Below the pieces are notes generated by a model. That model did not search any database. It was not told where the DNA came from and was given only the letters and a program-made list of their open reading frames with translations. Position numbers and translations under genes: made by a program. This document shows, one piece after another, positions 2,661 to 56,413 of a stretch of DNA of 62,770 nucleotides. Source of the stretch: a virus; the IMG/VR virus record IMGVR_UViG_3300028423_000363, positions 1-62,770 of that record; one strand, 5' to 3'. Position 1 is the first letter of the stretch. The number at the start of each line of letters is the position of its first letter.

Positions 2661-2750
2661 GTTATTAACTACTTTTGTCAAGTAAAATGATCAATAAACT
2701 TGACATTAATAACGGATTACGGCTATGAAGCGTTGCCGAGTAAAACGCTT
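2661..2750. repeat. attC-like palindromic site (array 1, site 1)
   Basis: Arms GTTATTAA (2661-2668) and TTAATAAC (2706-2713) are perfect inverted repeats. Inside them TGTCAAGT (2676-2683) pairs with ACTTGACA (2698-2705). The 5' side has seven extra unpaired bases, an asymmetry like the extrahelical bases of integron attC sites. A second short hairpin, AAGCGTT/AACGCTT, lies at 2728-2750. There is no T-run, so this is not an ordinary terminator. Confidence 0.6.
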
Positions 2751-2772
2751 GAACTTTTAAATTATAAACAAA

Positions 2773-3021
2773 ATGGATATACACCCGCAACACACAAATA
2801 TAGCACAGGGCAAAGGCAATGATTTTATAGCCGATGTTATAAACTGCCCTGATGAATTAGAGCCAGTTTTGGCACAAATAGAACATATAAACGATTTAGG
2901 TAAATCTAAATGGTACGAGGTAGTTTACTATGACGGGAACTGGCGTTCTTATAGTGGAAGCAATACTTTTGATGATGGTGAAAAGGTTTTAAAATGGAAA
3001 TACTGTAAGGGTTGTTTATAA
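2773..3021 (+). CDS. Small cassette protein, unknown function
   Basis: 82 residues, acidic, with no recognised domain. The C-terminal half (WYEVVYYDGNWRSYSG) looks like a small beta-rich fold. It starts after an A-rich leader (ATTATAAACAAAATG). Its stop lies at the start of the conserved cassette-end sequence at 3019-3044. Gene length, isolation and flanking palindromes fit an integron-type cassette gene; function cannot be given. Confidence 0.7.
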   Translation: MDIHPQHTNIAQGKGNDFIADVINCPDELEPVLAQIEHINDLGKSKWYEVVYYDGNWRSYSGSNTFDDGEKVLKWKYCKGCL

Positions 3022-3044
3022 CGTAAAAGTATAACAGTAGTAAC
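3019..3044. repeat. Cassette-end repeat, copy A (26 bp)
   Basis: This 26-bp sequence (begins TAACGTAAAAG, ends TAACAGTAGTAAC) is repeated exactly at 55274-55299. Its last 13 bases are complementary, with one mismatch, to GTTATTACTGTTA at 3291-3303, so the gene between them is framed by inverted repeats. Confidence 0.85.
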
Positions 3045-3072
3045 AGAATATAAACTTTAAAATTAAAATAAA

Positions 3073-3291
3073 ATGGCAAAACCAATTTTTATAGTAGAAT
3101 CACCAATTATGCAAACACAAGAAGAGTTTGTAAACACACAAAAAGTATTAGAAAATAAATTAAATGACTACCACGTTTTGATAGTACAAACCAATGTAGA
3201 TGATTTTAATTTTAAAGTTTTTTACGATAAAGACTTTACAGAAATTGAACTTAATGATTTAAGAAAATACATTAAAGAAAAATTAAAGTAG
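3073..3291 (+). CDS. Small cassette protein, unknown function
   Basis: 72 residues with no recognised domain; predicted mixed alpha/beta (VLIVQTNVDDFNFKVFYD, then a charged C-terminal helix). It starts at ATG after an A-rich leader (TTAAAATTAAAATAAAATGG). It is flanked by the same end sequences as the unrelated 70-residue gene at 55329-55541, which marks it as cassette cargo. Confidence 0.7.
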   Translation: MAKPIFIVESPIMQTQEEFVNTQKVLENKLNDYHVLIVQTNVDDFNFKVFYDKDFTEIELNDLRKYIKEKLK

Positions 3292-3362
3292 TTATTACTG
3301 TTATGCATTGTTACTTGCAGTGCGCCTATTAAGTGTAATTGTTTGGCGCATTGCTATGTAAC
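3289..3362. repeat. Cassette-end repeat plus attC-like hairpin (array 1, site 2)
   Basis: The first 25 bases (TAGTTATTACTGTTATGC... to 3313) are identical to 55539-55563. The hairpin that follows has arms GTTACTTGCAGTGCGCC (3310-3326) and GGCGCATTGCTATGTAAC (3345-3362), pairing over GTTAC, GCA and TGCGCC with bulges and an 18-nt loop. Bulged stems with GTTAC/GTAAC ends resemble attC sites. Confidence 0.7.
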
Positions 3363-3366
3363 ATTT

Positions 3367-3433
3367 CGGCGATATGATTTGCGCCTTTATGGATTGAGTG
3401 ATTAGCGTAAATTATATTGCGTGTTATATGCCG
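3367..3433. repeat. attC-like hairpin (array 1, site 3)
   Basis: Inner arms TTTGCGC and GCGTAAA pair around a 19-base loop (TTTATGGATTGAGTGATTA) that is nearly the same as the loop at 54581-54599 (16 of 19 bases). Outer arms CGATATGAT and ATTATATTGCG extend the stem. The right end CGTGTTATATGC (3420-3431) is the exact reverse complement of GCATATAACACG at 3712-3723, so the next gene is framed by 12-bp inverted repeats. Confidence 0.72.
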
Positions 3434-3460
3434 ATAGGGAACTGTAAAAATTAAGAAGAT

Positions 3461-3703
3461 ATGAAAACATTTAAAGTAAATACTGTGCAAGATATGATTG
3501 ACTGCACGAATGAAAACAACTTAGATAATTTTTTAGTAGATTTAAAAAAGATTATTGAAGCAGCTCATTATTTTAGAGAGTTAACTGATAATATGGCTGA
3601 GAAACAAAACATTTCTAAAAAATTAACGGAACTGAAAAGCAAAGGATTTGAATGGATTGACGATAGCAAACACGAAATAACTATCGAATTAAGCAGTAAG
3701 TAA
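3461..3703 (+). CDS. Small cassette protein, unknown function
   Basis: 80 residues, mostly helical and charged (NENNLDNFLVDLKKIIEAA), no recognised domain. ATG follows an A-rich leader (TTAAGAAGATATG). The gene is enclosed by perfect 12-bp inverted repeats at 3420-3431 and 3712-3723. A minus-strand frame across it is a shadow. Confidence 0.7.
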   Translation: MKTFKVNTVQDMIDCTNENNLDNFLVDLKKIIEAAHYFRELTDNMAEKQNISKKLTELKSKGFEWIDDSKHEITIELSSK

Positions 3704-3711
3704 TTTTTATT

Positions 3712-3841
3712 GCATATAACACGTGATAACATCATATATTGAACTAAAACATTATTAATCATGTAGTTACATAATATAAGTAGTTCGGAAGTGAACTTTT
3801 TATTTTTTAATTAAGTGATGAAGAGTTTGTTTTCGAACTAC
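3712..3841. repeat. Cassette end and attC-like hairpin (array 1, site 4)
   Basis: It begins with GCATATAACACG (3712-3723), partner of 3420-3431. The hairpin arms are GTAGTTCGGAAGTGAACT (3780-3797) and AGTTTGTTTTCGAACTAC (3824-3841), pairing over GTAGTTCG and GAACT/AGTTT-type ends around an AT-rich loop containing AAGTGATGA. It closes array 1 before the DUF3310 and ThyX genes. Confidence 0.6.
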
Positions 3842-16600: not shown

Positions 16601-17914
16601 TTTATTTAACCCTTCTAAGTTAGGTAAGGTTATATTAGCAGACAATAAACCTTCAAAAGAGTCTTGGTCTGTTCTTTCTTGTAAGTCAAAACCTATATCT
16701 ATTCTACCTCCGTTAACAAAAGCATCATCAGGAATATTCGTAAGGTCTATATCGACAAAGCCAAAACCTGGTTCGTTAAAAGCAGAAGTAGGTATATTAA
16801 TTCTGTTAAACTCTTCACTAACAACATCTACTGTATATTCTAGCTTGACTTTATCTCCGTCTTCGTTAACTAAGTCTCTTTGTTCTTCGTAGTTAGCGTA
16901 AAACAATCGACCTCCTGCATATTCTTGAGCTATTGCTTTTAAAGGAACATTGTCGAAACTTCTAAAATATTCTGCTTCAGGTAAGACTCTAAAGTTTTTG
17001 TTATTCTTAAAAGTAAAGGTAGCTTCAGTATCATTACTTAAACCCTCGTCTTCTTTGTTTATATCTTCAATTATATACCAATTAGATGAATTACTCTCTT
17101 TAAATAACACCTGAATATCTGTTACTACTTCATTTCCTGTATTATAAGTTATATCACAAGCATTAAATATATTAACCATTCCTTCATTTTCGAAGGTGTC
17201 GAAGTTAATTTCAAATGCTTTAGGAGTAAACATTGATTCAGAAGAAGAAGATATAGCAGAATAATAACCATCTTTATACTTATATCTATAAGCAAATGTT
17301 ATAAACTTATCCTCTAAACTATCTCCTCCGTCATTTAATCTTAAAGGAGTTAAGTCAGGTGCTTTTCTAGGAGCAGGCTTTATAACATTAATATCATCTT
17401 CTAAAAAGTTTCCAGAAGTGTATGTTTTACATCTCTCTATGTTTATTATTCTAGGAGGGTTATCATCACCACAAAATGCTAATAAGTCGCTATCTCTCTC
17501 TAAATCTCCTGAATCAGACGCTTTGTTTATAACATTAGCGTGAGTTATCCTCTTGTCGAAGTTTAATATATTGTTAGCAGTGTCTTGTAAAACCTGAACT
17601 AAAGTATTAGTCTTAGAGTTAAACTCAACTATAGTGTCATAGTCATCTCCTTTAACAAAGTAATATACTAAGTTTTTAGAGTCATTAGCCACACTACCTA
17701 TAACTTCAGGATTAGTTATTTCGTTTTCGACAACTAGATTAATATCGCTTTCCTTTACATTCCCTAGTACATTTTCAAGTGTACCAGAGTCATCACCTTC
17801 CGAAACATTAGTAATAGCATTACTTATATCTCTTACAGAACCATTAGGAATTAATCTTTCGTCAGCGTCTTTATTAACACCGCCTCTTATAAAGTTATTG
17901 GTTATTTTAGCCAT
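13661..17914 (-). CDS. Stabilisation / tail-tube-associated protein (crAss-like type)
   Basis: 1417 residues. The N-terminus (NNFIRGGVNKDADERLIPNG, then RDISNAITNVSEG and GTLENVLGN) is the hallmark of the long tail 'stabilisation protein' of crAss-like phages and resembles T7 gp12-type tail tubular B proteins. The remainder is beta-rich with many Asp/Asn/Phe residues and no signal peptide. It overlaps the upstream connector gene by 13 bases. The role in the short tail is inferred from this N-terminal match and position. Confidence 0.75.
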   Translation of the reverse strand: MAKITNNFIRGGVNKDADERLIPNGSVRDISNAITNVSEGDDSGTLENVLGNVKESDINLVVENEITNPEVIGSVANDSKNLVYYFVKGDDYDTIVEFNSKTNTLVQVLQDTANNILNFDKRITHANVINKASDSGDLERDSDLLAFCGDDNPPRIINIERCKTYTSGNFLEDDINVIKPAPRKAPDLTPLRLNDGGDSLEDKFITFAYRYKYKDGYYSAISSSSESMFTPKAFEINFDTFENEGMVNIFNACDITYNTGNEVVTDIQVLFKESNSSNWYIIEDINKEDEGLSNDTEATFTFKNNKNFRVLPEAEYFRSFDNVPLKAIAQEYAGGRLFYANYEEQRDLVNEDGDKVKLEYTVDVVSEEFNRINIPTSAFNEPGFGFVDIDLTNIPDDAFVNGGRIDIGFDLQERTDQDSFEGLLSANITLPNLEGLNKSLQIASNQDFQNALSAFESFFNDNGFSEPLNTDSISFNASNFNVASPDENTLRISLPRVKFILTNGGGISYIFEEQNTQVNVFTNESSASMKSNRDYEVAMLFLDKEGRKTTALTSIDNTVHVPISASDKKNTLKVTIPQTQKVPEWADRYKFAVKKVGLWETFYSNRFYIDGGFRWIKLEGGDVNKVNVGDEIIVKKDSTEIQNTLGTVKVLDIVDQDRDFIPNNTVEGTGVLLEEEQGQYIKIRPEGFSLDYDESEFINIDRADGQASNVRSERPYTILDNFKIETTDAGGNTIFEDLPFNQGTIFDIIKILSRNDDDQSLVKKTFVSNANYANIHDFITGINTYVPNNAPDPSQFPDTPETPYPTGFFETENDDADYIPYWVVRGEVVLESDTGGSYLIDELGNSLLVGDNNFDDNPFTIHKVRLDNTKPYVMVIKGSESGNNLNRGKLDIKINIRVVDGYYVFETKEKPVSDNIFFETPETYDIVNGEYEQTEHLLSRYFNCYSQGNGAESYQYKDKFNANFLDVSSTPTTTSADEYQKLTRFADITYSGVFNDNTGVNALNEFNLSTANFKDDIDKRYGGIYRLYNRDTNLVLFQEDKVSFIGLGEAELFNADGTANVSRIVNVLGNQRTYSGEYGISKDSESFAQYGTLMYFTDRKRGVVCRLSNNGVFEISSRGLRSYFRNLFNEKEVGQITGSYDDFYNTYVLNLKLDEGKYETWFWKESINQDGGGWVSNQRFNPEDMVAINGNFYTFKDGNIFRHNARDIGIYNTFYSVKEPSKFTIALNNTPNNRKNFKTIELDGSDKWKIDLKTNLSSTAVDGVFQGHVDINDFDKEEGIYRAFIRGNRDVKSINTESLHVQGIGLNNRVVDFDIFFDQPINEEVSVGDYIANDQLDVVGQIVNISSDNVITVSGTLDPSGITNLSDGDFVLAFKPQSIETSGLVGNHLEVSAELDTENKTELFSVSSEVFLSTPKT

Positions 17915-32110: not shown

Positions 32111-32581
32111 CTACCTTCTAGCACTTGAACAGTTTTCAGAAAAAGTAACCCACCTTATGTTTCCTTTTTCGTATCCCTTATCTGCATCTATTCTGTCTAT
32201 TGAAGGGCTCTTTTTTAAATCGTATCCGCTTTCTTTCCACTTTTTAAATATATATTTATAATCATCATTATTTAATGACCACTCATAAAAATCTTCTTTA
32301 TCTAAAATAGAAAGACCTTTGTATAAATGATTTTTATTTTTCAAAACACCGCCTACTCTTGATTTCATATTTCTGTAAGTTCTAACCAACTTTCCTTTAA
32401 TTGTTTTTTCATATTTTTTAGTAATTATATTATCATTATTCAATCTTCTTTTTCTTTGCTTGTCATTATTACATTTTCTGCAATAATAATCATAGCCTCT
32501 TTTGTTTTTAGGTCTTTTTAAAAACTCAGAAACCTCCTTTTCTTTTAAGCAACAGTTGCACTTCATCTTTATTTTTTCCAT
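32111..32581 (-). CDS. HNH endonuclease-like protein with N-terminal zinc finger
   Basis: 156 residues. MKCNCCLKEKEVSEF and YYCRKCNNDKQRKRR form a Cys4 zinc finger. The C-terminal PSIDRIDADKGYEKGNIRWV and TFSENCSS match the phage HNH/homing-endonuclease-like motif (SIDRIDxxKGYxxGNxRWVT). Classic catalytic His residues are few, so activity is uncertain. Start may be ATG 32581 or the internal ATG 32566, just after the upstream stop. It stands alone between a nuclease-like gene and the small basic genes, as a homing insertion would. Confidence 0.7.
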   Translation of the reverse strand: MEKIKMKCNCCLKEKEVSEFLKRPKNKRGYDYYCRKCNNDKQRKRRLNNDNIITKKYEKTIKGKLVRTYRNMKSRVGGVLKNKNHLYKGLSILDKEDFYEWSLNNDDYKYIFKKWKESGYDLKKSPSIDRIDADKGYEKGNIRWVTFSENCSSARR

Positions 32582-46230: not shown

Positions 46231-46242
46231 AAAAAACACACG

Positions 46243-46284
46243 GACTTATACCCTCTATAATATAAATATAATAAGGGTCATAGT
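46243..46284. repeat. Hairpin after the putative regulator
   Basis: GACTTATACCCT and AGGGTCATAGTT pair imperfectly around an AT-rich centre. No long T-run follows, so terminator function is uncertain. Confidence 0.5.
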
Positions 46285-46852
46285 TGATGTGTGAAAATTC
46301 TCAAACAGTTCACGAAATGTCCCAAGCTACAAAATGTAAAATTTTGCAGGAGAAGATTTTTGTTTTGATTAGGTTTAGAAAAAGCTCTGTATATGAGTTA
46401 GGTTTTAATAAGTTTAGTATATGAGTTAGGTTATACCCCAATACACATCAACCCTCACCCTTCCGAAAATCATTTCAAATCGCATAGGGGGGATCTTACA
46501 TTTTGCACTTCATTTTGAAACTTTTTAACCCTTTAACCTATCTTTTTATTGATATAGTCCAAACTTATAACCAATATTACTTTGATAAGGTTTGTTTATT
46601 TGTTGTTTGTGGTTGGTTTGTTGTTGTTGTTATCCCCTCACTTTAATAACCTACTTTATTTAATTGGTTTAAATTGTTTTGATGTTTACAGTTCGTGAAT
46701 TGTGATCTATTATTTAAGGGGCTTTAAAGGTGGTTTAAACGGTCCTTATATATATGTATGTCTTTTGTAATTGTGAATAGTTGAATAATAGTGTTAATTG
46801 TTAAAATTATGTTAAACTAATTTAATTGTATTGTGTAACTAAATTGTTGACT
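46283..46852. other. Non-coding region with repeats, possible origin or operator region
   Basis: No credible gene in about 670 bp. GTTGATGTGT (46283-46292) and ACACATCAAC (46443-46452) are exact inverted repeats. AAAATGTAA (46331-46339) and TTACATTTT (46497-46505) are another inverted pair. A G-run (ATAGGGGGGATC, near 46485) and several TTG-rich tracts follow. This could bind the adjacent HTH protein or carry a structured RNA. Confidence 0.45.
46389..46432 (+). repeat. 16-bp direct repeat
   Basis: GTATATGAGTTAGGTT occurs at 46389-46404 and 46417-46432, a 28-bp period. It is a possible binding site pair for the adjacent DNA-binding protein. Confidence 0.75.
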
Positions 46853-46860
46853 TATATTTG
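46831..46860 (+). promoter_or_regulatory. Bacteroidota promoter TTG-N19-TATATTTG
   Basis: TTG (46831-46833), 19 bases, TATATTTG (46853-46860). Spacing fits the -33/-7 consensus. It drives the accessory gene row starting at 46900, with a leader of about 35 bases. Confidence 0.75.
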
Positions 46861-46899
46861 TCCATGTAAACAAATTATTAATATTAAAACATTTGAATT

Positions 46900-47016
46900 A
46901 TGTCAAAGTATGTAACCTATTTAACTAGCAATGAAGTTGATGATGTCTTTAAATTTAACAACGGTATGCACATACGTTTCCCTAAAATTATGAATATGTC
47001 TGAAAAGGATGTTTAA
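46900..47016 (+). CDS. 38-residue small protein
   Basis: MSKYVTYLTSNEVDDVFKFN ... RFPKIMNMSEKDV. Preceded by the promoter above and an A-rich leader (CAAATTATTAATATTAAAAC). Short and unrecognised; it could be a leader peptide for the next gene. Confidence 0.45.
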   Translation: MSKYVTYLTSNEVDDVFKFNNGMHIRFPKIMNMSEKDV

Positions 47017-47073
47017 AATTGGTACTCAAAAAATCAAACAATTTAATAAATAATAACCTTTAAAACTAAAACT

Positions 47074-47673
47074 ATGGAAACTTTAAAAATGCCATTAAGT
47101 CAAGCAAAACAAAACACAAAACAAGCTAACAAGTCAGAAAAACAAAAGCTTAAAAAGATTAACGATCAATTAAAGCAAAGTAAATTAACTATAAAAAATA
47201 ATTGGTTAGAAGATACGCAAAGTGTATCGGCGCTGGTTAAATATGTTAGAAAAAATACTGAGATTGTTAAGCCATTAATCGACGCAATAAATAAAAAATA
47301 TGATGTTAATTTCAACGTTGGTAGCCTTAACGCTTCTGTTTTAAAGTTCGGTTACTTACATGAATTAAACCAAGTCAATTTAGATGGCGAAATCATTAAG
47401 CCTAAAAAATACTTTAATATTTCGTTCATGCTAAAATGTTTAGAACGTAAAGCAAAATTTGACTCAGACCTAGACAAATTTGCACCAGTAAGTAAAAAAG
47501 CAACTGAAAAAAATCTCTTAAGAAAATACTCGAATATTATACATAAAACGAGTTTAATTTTTGGGGATGATGTTCACACTTTTGTTGATCAACTAATTGA
47601 CCAGGATAAAACAATGCAGCAAATAGTTAACCGAGTTAAAACAGAATTTAAAACCCCACAATTAAACAAATAA
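47074..47673 (+). CDS. Unknown protein, first sizeable gene of the accessory row
   Basis: 199 residues, Lys/Asn-rich and helical (MPLSQAKQNTKQANKSEKQK; NAINKKYDVNFNVGSLNASV is part of a more conserved middle). No family recognised. It uses the local leader type (TTTAAAACTAAAACTATGG) and is followed by a structured non-coding stretch. Confidence 0.65.
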   Translation: METLKMPLSQAKQNTKQANKSEKQKLKKINDQLKQSKLTIKNNWLEDTQSVSALVKYVRKNTEIVKPLIDAINKKYDVNFNVGSLNASVLKFGYLHELNQVNLDGEIIKPKKYFNISFMLKCLERKAKFDSDLDKFAPVSKKATEKNLLRKYSNIIHKTSLIFGDDVHTFVDQLIDQDKTMQQIVNRVKTEFKTPQLNK

Positions 47674-47684
47674 ACCAACATTTT

Positions 47685-47739
47685 AGGCTTAATCAATAGC
47701 TTTAAAGCGTATTGCGTAGGTTCGCGACCTGTTAAGCCT
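47685..47739. ncRNA. Structured element, tRNA-like but too short
   Basis: AGGCTTAA (47685-47692) pairs exactly with TTAAGCCT (47732-47739). Inside are the palindrome GCTTTAAAGC and a hairpin AGGTTCGCGACCT with a T-arm-like TTCG loop. The 55-base length rules out a normal tRNA. Could be an attC-like end, an operator or part of a small RNA. Confidence 0.4.
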
Positions 47740-47785
47740 CAATAAATTATAAAAGTTTAACATCACGTTAACAATTTAACTGAAA

Positions 47786-47793
47786 TACTTTTG
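47786..47793 (+). promoter_or_regulatory. Possible -7 box TACTTTTG
   Basis: TACTTTTG fits TAnnTTTG inside the 670-bp gap 47674-48348. If active, the transcript would include the three-way junction at 48115-48170 before the 48349 gene. Confidence 0.35.
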
Positions 47794-48114
47794 TAATTTT
47801 ACCAAAACAAAACAAGATCTTTGAATTTTTAGATAGTTATAATTTTAAGTTACTTTAAAACGGTATTCAAGGCACGGCATGACCCTACTTTTTTACCAGG
47901 TTAATACAAAATTTGTTTTTTGTTTATACCTTAAAGCCTTAAGCGTTAACTATACTAATTTGCCTACACTATACACAAATAAAAAATATTAATATAGCTT
48001 TTTAAATTGCTTTATTACTTACTAGGATAAAGATTTTAAAGTACTTTTTAGGCTTTAATTATTTAATAAGCATTATTATATTAATAGATTTTACTTGTTG
48101 AATTGTAGGAGCTT

Positions 48115-48170
48115 GCATTATTATTTTGGCGGCTAAAATAGTCAAGCGTCGTTTGTTAGCGGCGTAATGC
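48115..48170 (+). ncRNA. Putative structured RNA with three-way junction
   Basis: GCATTA (48115-48120) pairs with TAATGC (48165-48170). Inside, ATTTT (48123-48127) pairs with AAAAT (48135-48139), and CGTCG (48147-48151) with CGGCG (48160-48164, one G-T pair). The sequence is locally GC-richer than its surroundings. The flanks include GTGCAAG/CTTGCAT near 48281-48306. Strand and function are inferred from the direction of flanking genes. Confidence 0.4.
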
Positions 48171-48348
48171 GTAGACCTTGTAGGCCAGGGCGGATCCGAA
48201 TTTATATTTTATATATTATAAACTAGGTAATAGGTTTACATGATCCTAAAGACAAACAAAGTCTTGAAAAATATTAACAGGTGCAAGTTATTGAGTTAGC
48301 TTGCATCATCTATTTTAAAACAAATACTAACTTTTAAAAAAAATAAAA

Positions 48349-53814: not shown

Positions 53815-54135
53815 ATGACAGAAGCAGATAAAATATTAAATAAGCATTTAACTGATAATGAAGCTAAATATATAGCTGATAAAAGATTTCTTTACGACAG
53901 TTTGATAAACGCAATAAATGAAGCATTAGCTACATCTCGTGTTAGCAGTAGCTTATTAGAAATAACACTTGAAGAATGGGAACACACTTGTGACGATGGC
54001 TGCTGTTATTCTTACGGTGAAGATATATATCTAAATGGTGAGAAATTAGACGAGCAAAATGCTGAAGATAGTAGGAATGCATTAACAGCAGTACTTACAA
54101 GGTTAGGTTATGACGTTGAAATAAATTACCGCTAA
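53815..54135 (+). CDS. Small conserved protein, possible first cassette of array 2
   Basis: 106 residues. The frame could begin at GTG 53794, but ATG 53815 is preferred. The core LEITLEEWEHTCDDGCCYSY, GEDIYLNGEKLD is a small accessory protein pattern often seen in cassettes. Its stop TAA is part of the first palindrome end (GCTAAC). Confidence 0.65.
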   Translation: MTEADKILNKHLTDNEAKYIADKRFLYDSLINAINEALATSRVSSSLLEITLEEWEHTCDDGCCYSYGEDIYLNGEKLDEQNAEDSRNALTAVLTRLGYDVEINYR

Positions 54136-54206
54136 CTGGTGGCGTATAAGATTTGCGCCTTTTCAGCCGAGTAAGTTCAGCGTAAATTTTATGCGCTGTT
54201 ATGCAC
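54131..54206. repeat. attC-like site (array 2, site 1)
   Basis: Arms GGCGTATAAGATTTGCGCC (54141-54159) and GCGTAAATTTTATGCGC (54180-54196) pair with small asymmetry around a 20-base loop. Ends GCTAAC and GTTATGCAC are like attC R boxes. The 5' arm TAACTGGTGGCGTATAA (54133-54149) is identical to 55670-55686, and the 3' TTTTATGCGCTGTT to 55721-55734. Confidence 0.78.
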
Positions 54207-54249
54207 TGGCACGGATTAATAAATAATAACTTAAATTCAACTTAATAAA

Positions 54250-54543
54250 ATGAAAAAGCCTACAACAGAGTGTTCAATTTCGGTACAAAAAAAATCAGAA
54301 ATAACTCGTGTATTTTTAGAAAGTCAAGGATGGAAATTGATTGAAGAAAAACCACTATTTGAATCTTTTGAGCATACTAAAAATCCTTACTTAAAATGCT
54401 CTATTGGATTGTACGGTGGTTTTTCTGTAGTAGAATTACACTGGTGCAACAAAACGCCTGAAAGAGAATTTTCGACAATCAATAACGAACTAACTATTAA
54501 TGATTATCACACAATCATTCGCCTGTTAAATGTACGGGTGTAG
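54250..54543 (+). CDS. Cassette protein, unknown function
   Basis: 97 residues (RVFLESQGWKLIEEKPLFES, FEHTKNPYLKCSIGLYGGFS), a mixed alpha/beta protein found in Bacteroidota accessory DNA; no family recognised. It is enclosed by GTTATGCAC (54198-54206) and GTGCATAAC (54549-54557), exact inverted 9-mers. Confidence 0.68.
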   Translation: MKKPTTECSISVQKKSEITRVFLESQGWKLIEEKPLFESFEHTKNPYLKCSIGLYGGFSVVELHWCNKTPEREFSTINNELTINDYHTIIRLLNVRV

Positions 54544-54548
54544 TGCTT

Positions 54549-54625
54549 GTGCATAACATTCCAGTGCTATGAAAAGTGCCTTTAGGGAATAAGTGATTAG
54601 CATTTTTTATAGCACGTGTTAGCTG
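54549..54625. repeat. attC-like site (array 2, site 2)
   Basis: GTGCTATGAAAAGTGCC (54564-54580) pairs with GCATTTTTTATAGCAC (54600-54615) around a loop (TTTAGGGAATAAGTGATTA) nearly identical to that at 3386-3404. Left end GTGCATAAC; right end GTTAGCTG (54618-54625). Confidence 0.78.
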
Positions 54626-54667
54626 ACGAAGTGAACAGTAAAATATTAATGGATTAAAAAAAGAATT

Positions 54668-55258
54668 ATGAAAAATTGGACTGGAAATAAAAACAGTATT
54701 TATAAAACTTTAGGTTCGAGTAACCACACAGAAAAAAGCCGTGAGCAACATGACTATTATGCAACCGACCCAAAAGCAGCCGAATTACTTTTGGAATTAG
54801 AAAGCTTTGAAAATGTATTAGAGCCTTCTTGTGGTGAGGGACATTTAAGTAAAGTTTTTGTTGATGCAGGAATTAATGTTACAAGTAGCGACTTAATTGA
54901 TAGAAATTACGGAACTCAAAAAAGTTTTTTTGACTACGAAAAATGGAATGGCGATATAGTTACAAACCCACCTTACAAATATGGGCTTGAATTTGTAGAA
55001 CACGCTTTGAAAATAATACCTAATGGAAATAAAGTTGCGATGTTTTTAAAACTGCAATTTCTTGAAGGTAAGAAACGAAAAAAACTTTTTGTAGATAAAC
55101 CACCTAAAAAACTTTACGTATCTAGTAGTAGGCTGCTTTGTGCAAAAAACGCTGATTTTGAAGGTATGCGAAAAGGTGGCGGTAGTGCCGTTGCTTACGG
55201 CTGGTTTGTTTGGCAAAAAGGTTTTAAAGGACTTTCGCAAATAGAATGGTTTAATTAA
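54668..55258 (+). CDS. DNA adenine methyltransferase-like cassette gene
   Basis: 196 residues. SREQHDYYATDPKAAELLLE, LEPSCGEGHLSKVF (motif I, SAM binding) and DIVTNPPYKYGLEFVEHALK (motif IV NPPY) identify a DNA N6-adenine methyltransferase-like fold; GGGSAVAYGWFVWQKG follows. It is smaller than a typical type II methyltransferase and has no separate target-recognition domain. No restriction endonuclease is adjacent, so it is an orphan, perhaps for protection from host restriction. It is framed by GTTAGCTG and CAGGCTAAC. Confidence 0.82.
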   Translation: MKNWTGNKNSIYKTLGSSNHTEKSREQHDYYATDPKAAELLLELESFENVLEPSCGEGHLSKVFVDAGINVTSSDLIDRNYGTQKSFFDYEKWNGDIVTNPPYKYGLEFVEHALKIIPNGNKVAMFLKLQFLEGKKRKKLFVDKPPKKLYVSSSRLLCAKNADFEGMRKGGGSAVAYGWFVWQKGFKGLSQIEWFN

Positions 55259-55268
55259 TATTTTATTG

Positions 55269-55299
55269 CAGGCTAACGTAAAAGTATAACAGTAGTAAC
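55269..55299. repeat. Cassette-end repeat, copy B (array 2, site 3)
   Basis: CAGGCTAAC (55269-55277) ends the methyltransferase cassette. Bases 55274-55299 are identical to 3019-3044 (26 bp). The last 13 (TAACAGTAGTAAC) are complementary to GTTATTACTGTTA at 55541-55553. No long hairpin is present here. Confidence 0.82.
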
Positions 55300-55328
55300 G
55301 GAAATATTAATAACTAAATTTTTTAAAT

Positions 55329-55541
55329 ATGAAAGCAAAACTAATATATAATGGTGAAGAAACTGCAGAAACACAAGAAGTTGATTTACCACAAATACCA
55401 AGGGTAGGCGACGGTTTTTGTGTTTTAATAGACAATGTAGAAAAGCGAGTATTTGCTTCTTGTGTGGTGGAAAGCATAGACTGGTGGATTGAAAATGGTA
55501 AACTGCGAAATGTAGAAATTTATTTAAAAGACGAAGAATAG
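55329..55541 (+). CDS. Small cassette protein, unknown function
   Basis: 70 residues, beta-rich (KAKLIYNGEETAETQEVDLP; VFASCVVESIDWWIENGKLR). It sits between exactly the same end sequences as the unrelated gene 3073-3291. No family recognised. Confidence 0.7.
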   Translation: MKAKLIYNGEETAETQEVDLPQIPRVGDGFCVLIDNVEKRVFASCVVESIDWWIENGKLRNVEIYLKDEE

Positions 55542-55673
55542 TTATTACTGTTATGCATTGTTATATATCTGGTGGTGGCTAGTAAGACCTTAGCGGATGA
55601 TGAATGCACTTGATGCGATTCTGGTTTGGCGAAAATATGGGTTTATTAACCTGTGCCACCACTTGTATATAAC
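55539..55673. repeat. Cassette-end repeat plus large hairpin (array 2, site 4)
   Basis: Bases 55539-55563 equal 3289-3313. GTTATATATCTGGTGGTGGC (55560-55579) pairs with GCCACCACTTGTATATAAC (55655-55673), enclosing a 75-base loop with no gene. The stem ends GTTATATA/TATATAAC. Confidence 0.72.
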
Positions 55674-55741
55674 TGGTGGCGTATAAAATAAGCCAGCGCA
55701 ACACTGGTTAATTCGGCTTGTTTTATGCGCTGTTGTAAAGC
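55670..55741. repeat. attC-like site (array 2, site 5)
   Basis: GGCGTATAAAATAAGCC (55678-55694) pairs with GGCTTGTTTTATGCGC (55715-55730). Shares its arms with 54131-54206 but not its loop. The right end GTTGTAAAGC (55732-55741) is the exact reverse complement of GCTTTACAAC at 56371-56380. Confidence 0.78.
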
Positions 55742-55796
55742 GTTTTTCAATTCAAATTTTTTAAATTCAAATATTAATCAATTAAATAAAATAAAA

Positions 55797-56369
55797 ATGA
55801 AAAAATTATTAAAATCATTAGACAAAAAAATATCAGTTAGACAAGCTGGTACAGGAACAATTTATGTTTCTTTTGACGGTAAAAAAATAAGAATTGCTAA
55901 TCATGAACCTAATAGATCAATGAAAAGACAAAGAGGTTCAGCAGATCTTGAAATCTACACTCACGATTTAGTAGGTAAAGAAATAAATTCTAAGTATGAT
56001 GTTGTAGAAAAAGTAGCAGATTTTTTAAATATTGAAATTAAAGGACCTACAAAGTCAGCTATTACACGTTTTAGAAATAAAGAATTAGAAAAATCAAAAA
56101 AACTTGCTAGAATAGAAATTGAAAATGAAAAGGAAATGAAAGAAATACAAGATCGAATTAAAAAGTTTTATTCTAAAATAAAAAAGCTGACTAAAGGCAA
56201 AGAAAAAGAACTTAAACAATTATATGCTGAAGCTGAAAAATATGGCGATTTAGGCTCTAATGGATCAAAAAGAAGAAAAAGACGTACATCATATTTTAAA
56301 AGAGAATTCAAAAATAGGTTTGGAATAGAAGCAACGCCTTCAGATGTTAAAAATGCAATTAATTCTTAA
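55797..56369 (+). CDS. Lys-rich cassette protein with coiled coil
   Basis: 190 residues from ATG 55797 (a longer frame begins at ATG 55725, inside the palindrome). N-terminal TGTIYVSFDGKKIRIANHEP and EIYTHDLVGKEINSKYDVVE, then a long Lys/Glu coiled coil (KSKKLARIEIENEKEMKEIQ) and a basic C-terminus (KRRKRRTSYFKREFKNRFGI). Could bind nucleic acid; no family recognised. Exact 10-bp inverted repeats frame it. Confidence 0.65.
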   Translation: MKKLLKSLDKKISVRQAGTGTIYVSFDGKKIRIANHEPNRSMKRQRGSADLEIYTHDLVGKEINSKYDVVEKVADFLNIEIKGPTKSAITRFRNKELEKSKKLARIEIENEKEMKEIQDRIKKFYSKIKKLTKGKEKELKQLYAEAEKYGDLGSNGSKRRKRRTSYFKREFKNRFGIEATPSDVKNAINS

Positions 56370-56370
56370 T

Positions 56371-56380
56371 GCTTTACAAC
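56371..56380. repeat. Cassette-end inverted repeat, end of array 2
   Basis: GCTTTACAAC, partner of 55732-55741. No hairpin follows, so the array ends here. Confidence 0.75.
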
Positions 56381-56413
56381 ACGTAATAACAACACATAAA
56401 CACTTAAACCCTT

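Follow-up and report, generated by a model that had tools for sequence, protein, structure and literature searches.

Two integron-like cassette arrays with wobble-type hairpins and a leader-encoding site in a probable flavobacterial phage

Does a short run of small genes spaced by palindromes, found near one end of a viral record, belong to an integron, and if so, of which kind? The window analysed here is the whole IMG/VR record of 62,770 bases. It encodes a primase-helicase 62% identical to its homologue in Tenacibaculum phage JQ, together with portal and virion proteins and a GroEL-like protein, and therefore most likely derives from a flavobacterial tailed phage. A stretch of ~2 kb at 46231-48348 is AT-rich and has few ORFs, which is unusual for so tightly packed a genome. 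An earlier note, made from the sequence alone, had read the run of genes as an integron-type cassette array with attC sites. We consider it likely that the run is one of two integron-like arrays in this phage (array 1 at 2.7-3.7 kb, array 2 at 54.1-56.4 kb; Table 1), with hairpins of a wobble type, tagging of proteins by a leader and a XerC-like enzyme that probably moves the cassettes. The integron reading is thereby supported in part: 'integron-like' is warranted, 'integron' is not yet.

All three ORFs of the run (2773-3021, 3073-3291 and 3461-3703) are present as claimed; their description as genes separated by palindromes needs correction, as the start of gene 1 lies within the hairpin 2707-2842 and the second ORF within the loop of the hairpin 3016-3316. 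Array 1 is an alternating chain of GTT...AAC units and AAC...GTT hairpins, and array 2 (54130-56394) is built in the same way. The inverted repeat said to frame a gene was recovered, 3420-3431 reading CGTGTTATATGC and 3712-3723 being its exact reverse complement, the core GTTATATGC being confined to this pair of positions within the window. Palindromes between the genes were evident from folding, with z = -3.2 for 3286-3370 and z = -3.1 for 2655-2720. A hairpin with the reported GTTAC/GTAAC-like ends exists at 3310-3362, but its polarity is opposite to that of attC, and the attC-like site (AAC...GTT) is 3356-3429 instead. Gene-less GTT...AAC hairpins, all of polarity opposite to attC, adjoin each of the three long-loop hairpins (2661-2713, 3310-3362 and 55560-55673). 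The gene 1 core (2839-3021) has relatives among the small proteins of jumbo phages of Gammaproteobacteria, and its relative in Cronobacter phage GAP32 adjoins a methyltransferase gene.

Table 1. Positions of the features assigned to the two arrays in the window.
Feature	Position	Strand	Evidence
Array 1
Gene-less GTT...AAC hairpin unit, 53 bp	2661..2713	+	ends GTTATTAA/TTAATAAC; fold z -3.1 (over 2655-2720)
attC_a, leader-encoding attC-like AAC...GTT hairpin, R'' TAATAAC ... R' GTTATAA	2707..2842	+	best match of strict scan; type recurs in phi17:1 and 17 viral loci
N-terminal leader MDIHPQHTNIAQGKGNDFIADV, within attC_a, in frame with gene 1	2773..2838	+	
Cassette 1 (GTT...AAC unit), gene 1 core, stop codon within R''	2836..3022	+	9-nt match of the ends; homologues of the core in Vibrio and jumbo phages
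attC_c, attC-like AAC...GTT hairpin, loop holds complete ORF 3073-3291	3016..3316	+	arms nearly identical to attC_d
Gene-less GTT...AAC hairpin unit	3310..3362	+	fold; complementary ends
attC_b, attC-like AAC...GTT hairpin, R'' ATGTAAC ... R' GTTATAT, three G.T pairs	3356..3429	+	R1 42.8 bits, but an R1 training sequence
Cassette (GTT...AAC unit) with gene 3 (3461-3703)	3423..3720	+	ends GTTATATGC/GCATATAAC
Terminal sequence AACACGTGATAACATCA	3718..3736	+	resembles array 2 end
Array 2
attC-like hairpin over stop codon of phage gene 53794-54135	54130..54204	+	untrained R1 match, 27.1 bits, E 0.006
Cassette with ORF 54250-54543	54198..54557	+	ends GTTATGCAC/GTGCATAAC
attC-like hairpin	54551..54624	+	fold z -2.1; R1; stem analysis
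Cassette with DNA methyltransferase-like gene 54668-55258	54618..55277	+	phrog_799, E 1.2e-60; complementary ends
attC_d, attC-like hairpin, loop holds another ORF 55329-55541	55271..55566	+	arms as in attC_c
Gene-less GTT...AAC hairpin unit	55560..55673	+	complementary ends
attC-like hairpin	55667..55738	+	fold; energy-based scan; stem analysis
Cassette with ORF 55797-56369	55732..56380	+	ends match over 10 nt
Terminal sequence AACACGTAATAACAACA	56378..56394	+	compared with array 1 end

For the eight GTT...AAC units of both arrays, the seven bases following GTT were compared with the opposite end, and 42 of the 56 end positions were found to be complementary. GTT/AAC pairs spaced 50-700 bases apart average 1.96 of seven, and none of 400,000 simulated sets of units exceeded 32 matches; the exact P value is optimistic, because the units were picked by eye before the test. 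The ends vary between units, yet stay complementary within each unit. Complementary ends were also seen in most of the inspected cassettes of Cellulophaga phage phi17:1, L101, L102 and Polaribacter phage Leef_1, and in many units of other contigs. An excised circle whose end site folds would be expected to need ends of this kind. At the corresponding place, relatives carry other genes (Tenacibaculum phage JQ, L005); from sequence comparison, the units would be exchangeable single-gene units with complementary ends. A BLAST search of array 1 against phages, plasmids and Bacteroidota genomes returned phi17:1 only, the remainder being AT-rich noise, and the match is limited to 2707-2842 because the two phages have the leader hairpin in common with a different gene behind it.

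The hairpins attC_c (3016-3316) and attC_d (55271-55566) have arms that are common at 29 of 30 and 25 of 25 bases; the ORFs in their loops are unrelated to each other, and both look coding. Exact 23-mers of the attC_c arms were absent from the viral contigs. An origin of ORF 3073-3291 as a transposon-like insert was considered and set aside, the arms lying exactly between the AAC and the GTT box in both arrays. ORF-bearing loops are consistent with the published tolerance of attC for a variable terminal structure (PMC2727003).

In attC_a, the start codon of gene 1 is located in the loop, and the right arm encodes GNDFIADV in frame with the remaining gene 1. A pattern scan (ATGAGTAAAGA plus ATAGCCGATGTTA, with wide ATG-GTT spacing permitted) revealed this hairpin type, MSKEN...GNDFIADV, at 17 viral loci including phi17:1, where it is continued in frame by small proteins that, compared by eye, are of 16 different kinds, one of them resembling acyl carrier protein. 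Despite the range permitted, the distance from ATG to GTT (R') is 60 nt at every leader locus, and the reading frame is open into the downstream ORF in all 17, L131 and L139 carrying the same ORF. A loop ATG in frame across the GTT box into an ORF was found in the window, phi17:1, the 17 viral loci and the host locus L124. A matching end box (at least 6 of 8 positions) was present in 12 of the 16 testable leader loci, the window included, compared with 4.8% for swapped boxes; these end boxes lie close to the stop codon and usually contain it. An in-frame ATG close to the junction, within 12 codons, was seen in no more than 4 of 16 cassettes, and the Vibrio phage homologue of gene 1 begins at the end point of the leader. 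The acyl-carrier-like cassette occurs both in a phage contig (L136) and on a Bacteroidota chromosome (L124), with 82% identity over 345 nt, leader and cassette included. Chromosomal matches of the short right-arm pattern were mostly leaderless or due to chance. The Leef_1 array has a leader-type hairpin of its own, MEEIKEAV...IPV. The leader motif was found neither in the literature searched nor in plasmids. Cassette arrays in cultured flavobacterial phages were observed in phi17:1 (L004, 3998-5338) and in Leef_1 (L148, 3450-5582), both without mention in the literature consulted.

AAC...GTT boxes are present at all seven window sites, so that R' and R'' boxes flank a hairpin as in integrons and CALINs; their variable positions often deviate from RYYYAAC ... 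GTTRRRY. The bulged stems of the earlier description were not confirmed. Regular extrahelical bases on one arm are absent, a single-base gap occurs in one of the seven sites (attC_a), and the irregularities are mostly 1x1 positions, G.T on the gene strand and A.C on the other, in a typical order of 6 bp, G.T, 4 bp, G.T. Sixteen sites listed by hand (window, phi17:1, P12002L and two viral contigs), those of common descent not being independent, have 30 G.T, 2 A.C and 7 other mismatches in their gene-strand stems (p 2.5e-7), with a concentration at 13-14 and 18-19 bases behind AAC. When 14 stretches with arrays were surveyed automatically, the count, noisier and with spurious hairpins included, was 101 G.T versus 34 A.C (p 7e-9), the 6 bp, G.T, 4 bp, G.T pattern recurring across unrelated stem sequences. 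Folded as single bottom strands, the check proposed in the earlier note, the short window sites do form hairpins of modest energy, but the gene strand pairs better. Spacers in window-type sites are ~6 next to R'' and ~2 next to R', whereas sites adjoining true Bacteroidota IntI genes have bulged bases and a spacer of mostly 2-3 bases at R'' and 4-6 at R'. Since the asymmetry is reversed, the gene strand here has the geometry of the classical bottom strand, which suggests that window-type sites are inverted relative to their genes.

A simple attC scan of the window, weaker evidence by itself, returned array sites as its best two matches (23.8 and 21.3), above the top score of 100 shuffles (20.2), followed by a coding region (20.1); energy-based attC scans gave an excess of chance matches in AT-rich DNA. 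A missing covariance hit had been named beforehand as counting against attC sites, and this was the outcome with R2, a stand-in classical attC model trained on class 1 and IntI-linked Bacteroidota attCs: R2 recovered dozens of classical sites in classical arrays, many of them untrained, and gave 0 matches in the window, phi17:1, P12002L and JQ. The model R1, built from nine phage sites including three window sites, found untrained matches at 54130 in the window, at 32220 in P12002L and in one further phi17:1 copy, and none in 340 kb of classical loci with IntI-linked arrays. Applied to Bacteroidota chromosomes, R1 matched 11 of 296 genomes at E ≤ 0.05 against ~15 chance matches expected; only its best seven places, at E ≤ 0.0025 against 0.7 expected, clearly exceed chance. 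The chromosomal matches do not follow IntI presence, R1-type genomes being mostly without IntI, and the presence of a host IntI as a predictor of R1-type sites was unsupported by genome comparison. Rfam contained no match for the hairpins. Judged from sequence, we conclude that the hairpin family is real but not classical, and that it spans flavobacterial phages and a few Bacteroidota chromosomes.

In agreement with the earlier note, a tyrosine recombinase was found in the window neither with PF00589 nor with TIGR02249, and the window plus six related phage records gave no IntI-type integrase (TIGR02249). Among 15 leader-carrying viral records, three have a tyrosine recombinase, all below the IntI cut-off, and a protein search added a fourth, which shares 75% identity with the L143 enzyme and belongs to Leef_1, a cultured Polaribacter phage. 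In L143, Leef_1, L132 and G405, the XerC-like gene comes after the last AAC box, ~40-60 nt further 3', in the same orientation; the relatives' enzymes score 76-125 bits against an IntI cut-off of 265. An alignment of the L143, Leef_1 and L132 proteins with two IntI proteins, G405 being left out, revealed the conserved motifs to be kept and the ~42-residue IntI insertion to be absent. L143 and Leef_1 have in common an attI-like sequence, AAC[A/G]CCCCTATATAC, which resembles the left arm of the hairpins. A search of 375 Bacteroidota genomes for the L143-type recombinase at E ≤ 1e-70 was negative and, being without a positive control, carries little weight. In G405, a viral contig of 265,845 bases, leader hairpins occupy one end and an array with recombinase the other, which suggests one array across the contig ends. 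Leef_1 has a second gene annotated as integrase (17391-17864); the main text of its paper mentions neither integron nor cassette.

We propose that a cassette is a unit that runs from a GTT box to an AAC box complementary to it, the latter often containing the stop codon, and that cassettes are joined by attC-like hairpins, the single-stranded form of which is probably the recombination substrate. These hairpins would form a Bacteroidota and flavophage family with paired stems broken by G.T wobbles on the gene strand and not by bulges. A leader-type site would supply a start codon and ~21 residues, translated in frame into the next cassette, which would let a cassette without its own start yield a tagged protein. 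Movement of the cassettes is probably the work of a XerC-like tyrosine recombinase provided in trans, by the host or by phages that are resident or co-infecting. The units, boxes, hairpins, wobble rule and in-frame leader fusions, as well as the recombinase beside the relatives' arrays, are features of the DNA itself; recombination at the sites, its enzyme and strand, and expression of the fusions we infer from them. That all this constitutes a separate integron-like system of Bacteroidota phages, with a 3' XerC-type recombinase, an adjoining attI-like site, wobble sites and a leader giving start-less genes tagged fusions, has about even chances in our view.

The array-side recombinase could instead be the lysogeny integrase of those phages, with the array at the attachment site and the cassettes moved by another enzyme. 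Integrases usually adjoin attP, and the Leef_1 enzyme is annotated 'integrase', taken as a sign of potentially temperate life; we regard this reading as possible but doubtful, given that the gene follows directly behind the last AAC box in the same orientation in all four contigs, that L143 and Leef_1 have their attI-like sequence in common, and that Leef_1 has a second annotated integrase. Somewhat unlikely is an ordinary CALIN, the sites being true classical attCs and a host IntI having placed the cassettes into the phage. IntI1 recombined one site of P12002L, a virulent Polaribacter phage with R1-type sites (PMC9892861); moreover, 105 of 395 sampled Bacteroidota genomes have a tyrosine integrase above the curated TIGR02249 cut-off (loci L039-L053 and L066-L085), classical attC arrays being clear in several of them, and Bacteroidota integrons repeatedly show R boxes such as GCATAAC/GTTATGC. 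However, the classical model misses all window sites and R1 misses the IntI-linked arrays, regular bulges are lacking, the spacer asymmetry is reversed, and R1-type genomes mostly have no IntI. The earlier label 'CALIN-like' fits insofar as the cassette array has no integrase and phage CALINs have been published (PMC9892861), but the array recombinase of the relatives is not IntI.

Nearly identical arms around unrelated ORFs in attC_c and attC_d would suit small elements of transposon type bounded by terminal inverted repeats, or mosaics from homologous recombination at short repeats; this is very improbable, as the ends differ between units and are complementary within each, where transposon ends behave otherwise, and no transposase was seen within or beside the arrays. 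The better pairing of the gene strand through G.T pairs is what RNA selection predicts, so that the hairpins might be terminators or processing sites between phage genes with no role in recombination. Such RNA elements would leave the complementary boxes, the swapped unrelated genes and the phage-host cassette unexplained, and with no Rfam match we consider them most improbable.

Compared with classical integrons, the arrays are alike in unit organisation, AAC/GTT boxes, folded hairpins with a variable loop, the CALIN form and an array beside a tyrosine recombinase. The phage sites differ in having no regular bulges and spacers of ~6/2 versus 2/6 relative to the gene; the phage-array genes point towards the recombinase, which is a XerC-like enzyme without the IntI insertion, and the classical attC model is blind to the sites. 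Of the proposed cassette organisation with attC sites, the units with complementary ends are retained, but the sites are not classical attCs. With ORF-11/attI1 and fused cassettes (PMC4670013), the phage leader shares the contribution of a recombination site to cassette translation; it differs in lying within the preceding hairpin, in having ~21 conserved residues and in being fused to many proteins. Cassette arrays in phages, called unusual in the earlier note, were already published in 2023 for virulent phages including Polaribacter phage P12002L (Qi et al., PMC9892861). These CALINs are likewise integrase-less cassette clusters of flavobacterial phages with methyltransferase cassettes and R1-type sites in P12002L; the main text is without leader sites, a wobble rule, ORF-bearing loops or an associated non-IntI recombinase. 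Within the literature searched, site type, leader and probable enzyme appear to be new.

That a phage and a host chromosome have a cassette in common indicates that genes pass between the two. Complete integrons have been reported as very rare in Bacteroidetes (PMC9024848), and this rarity may partly reflect a second hairpin type in this group that models of classical attC sites overlook. Should the XerC-like enzyme prove to be the recombinase, a natural system with neither bulges nor the IntI insertion would be at hand in which to test how the two are linked. How promoterless, start-less cassettes are expressed would find a new answer in a site that gives every captured gene its start codon and a common tag.
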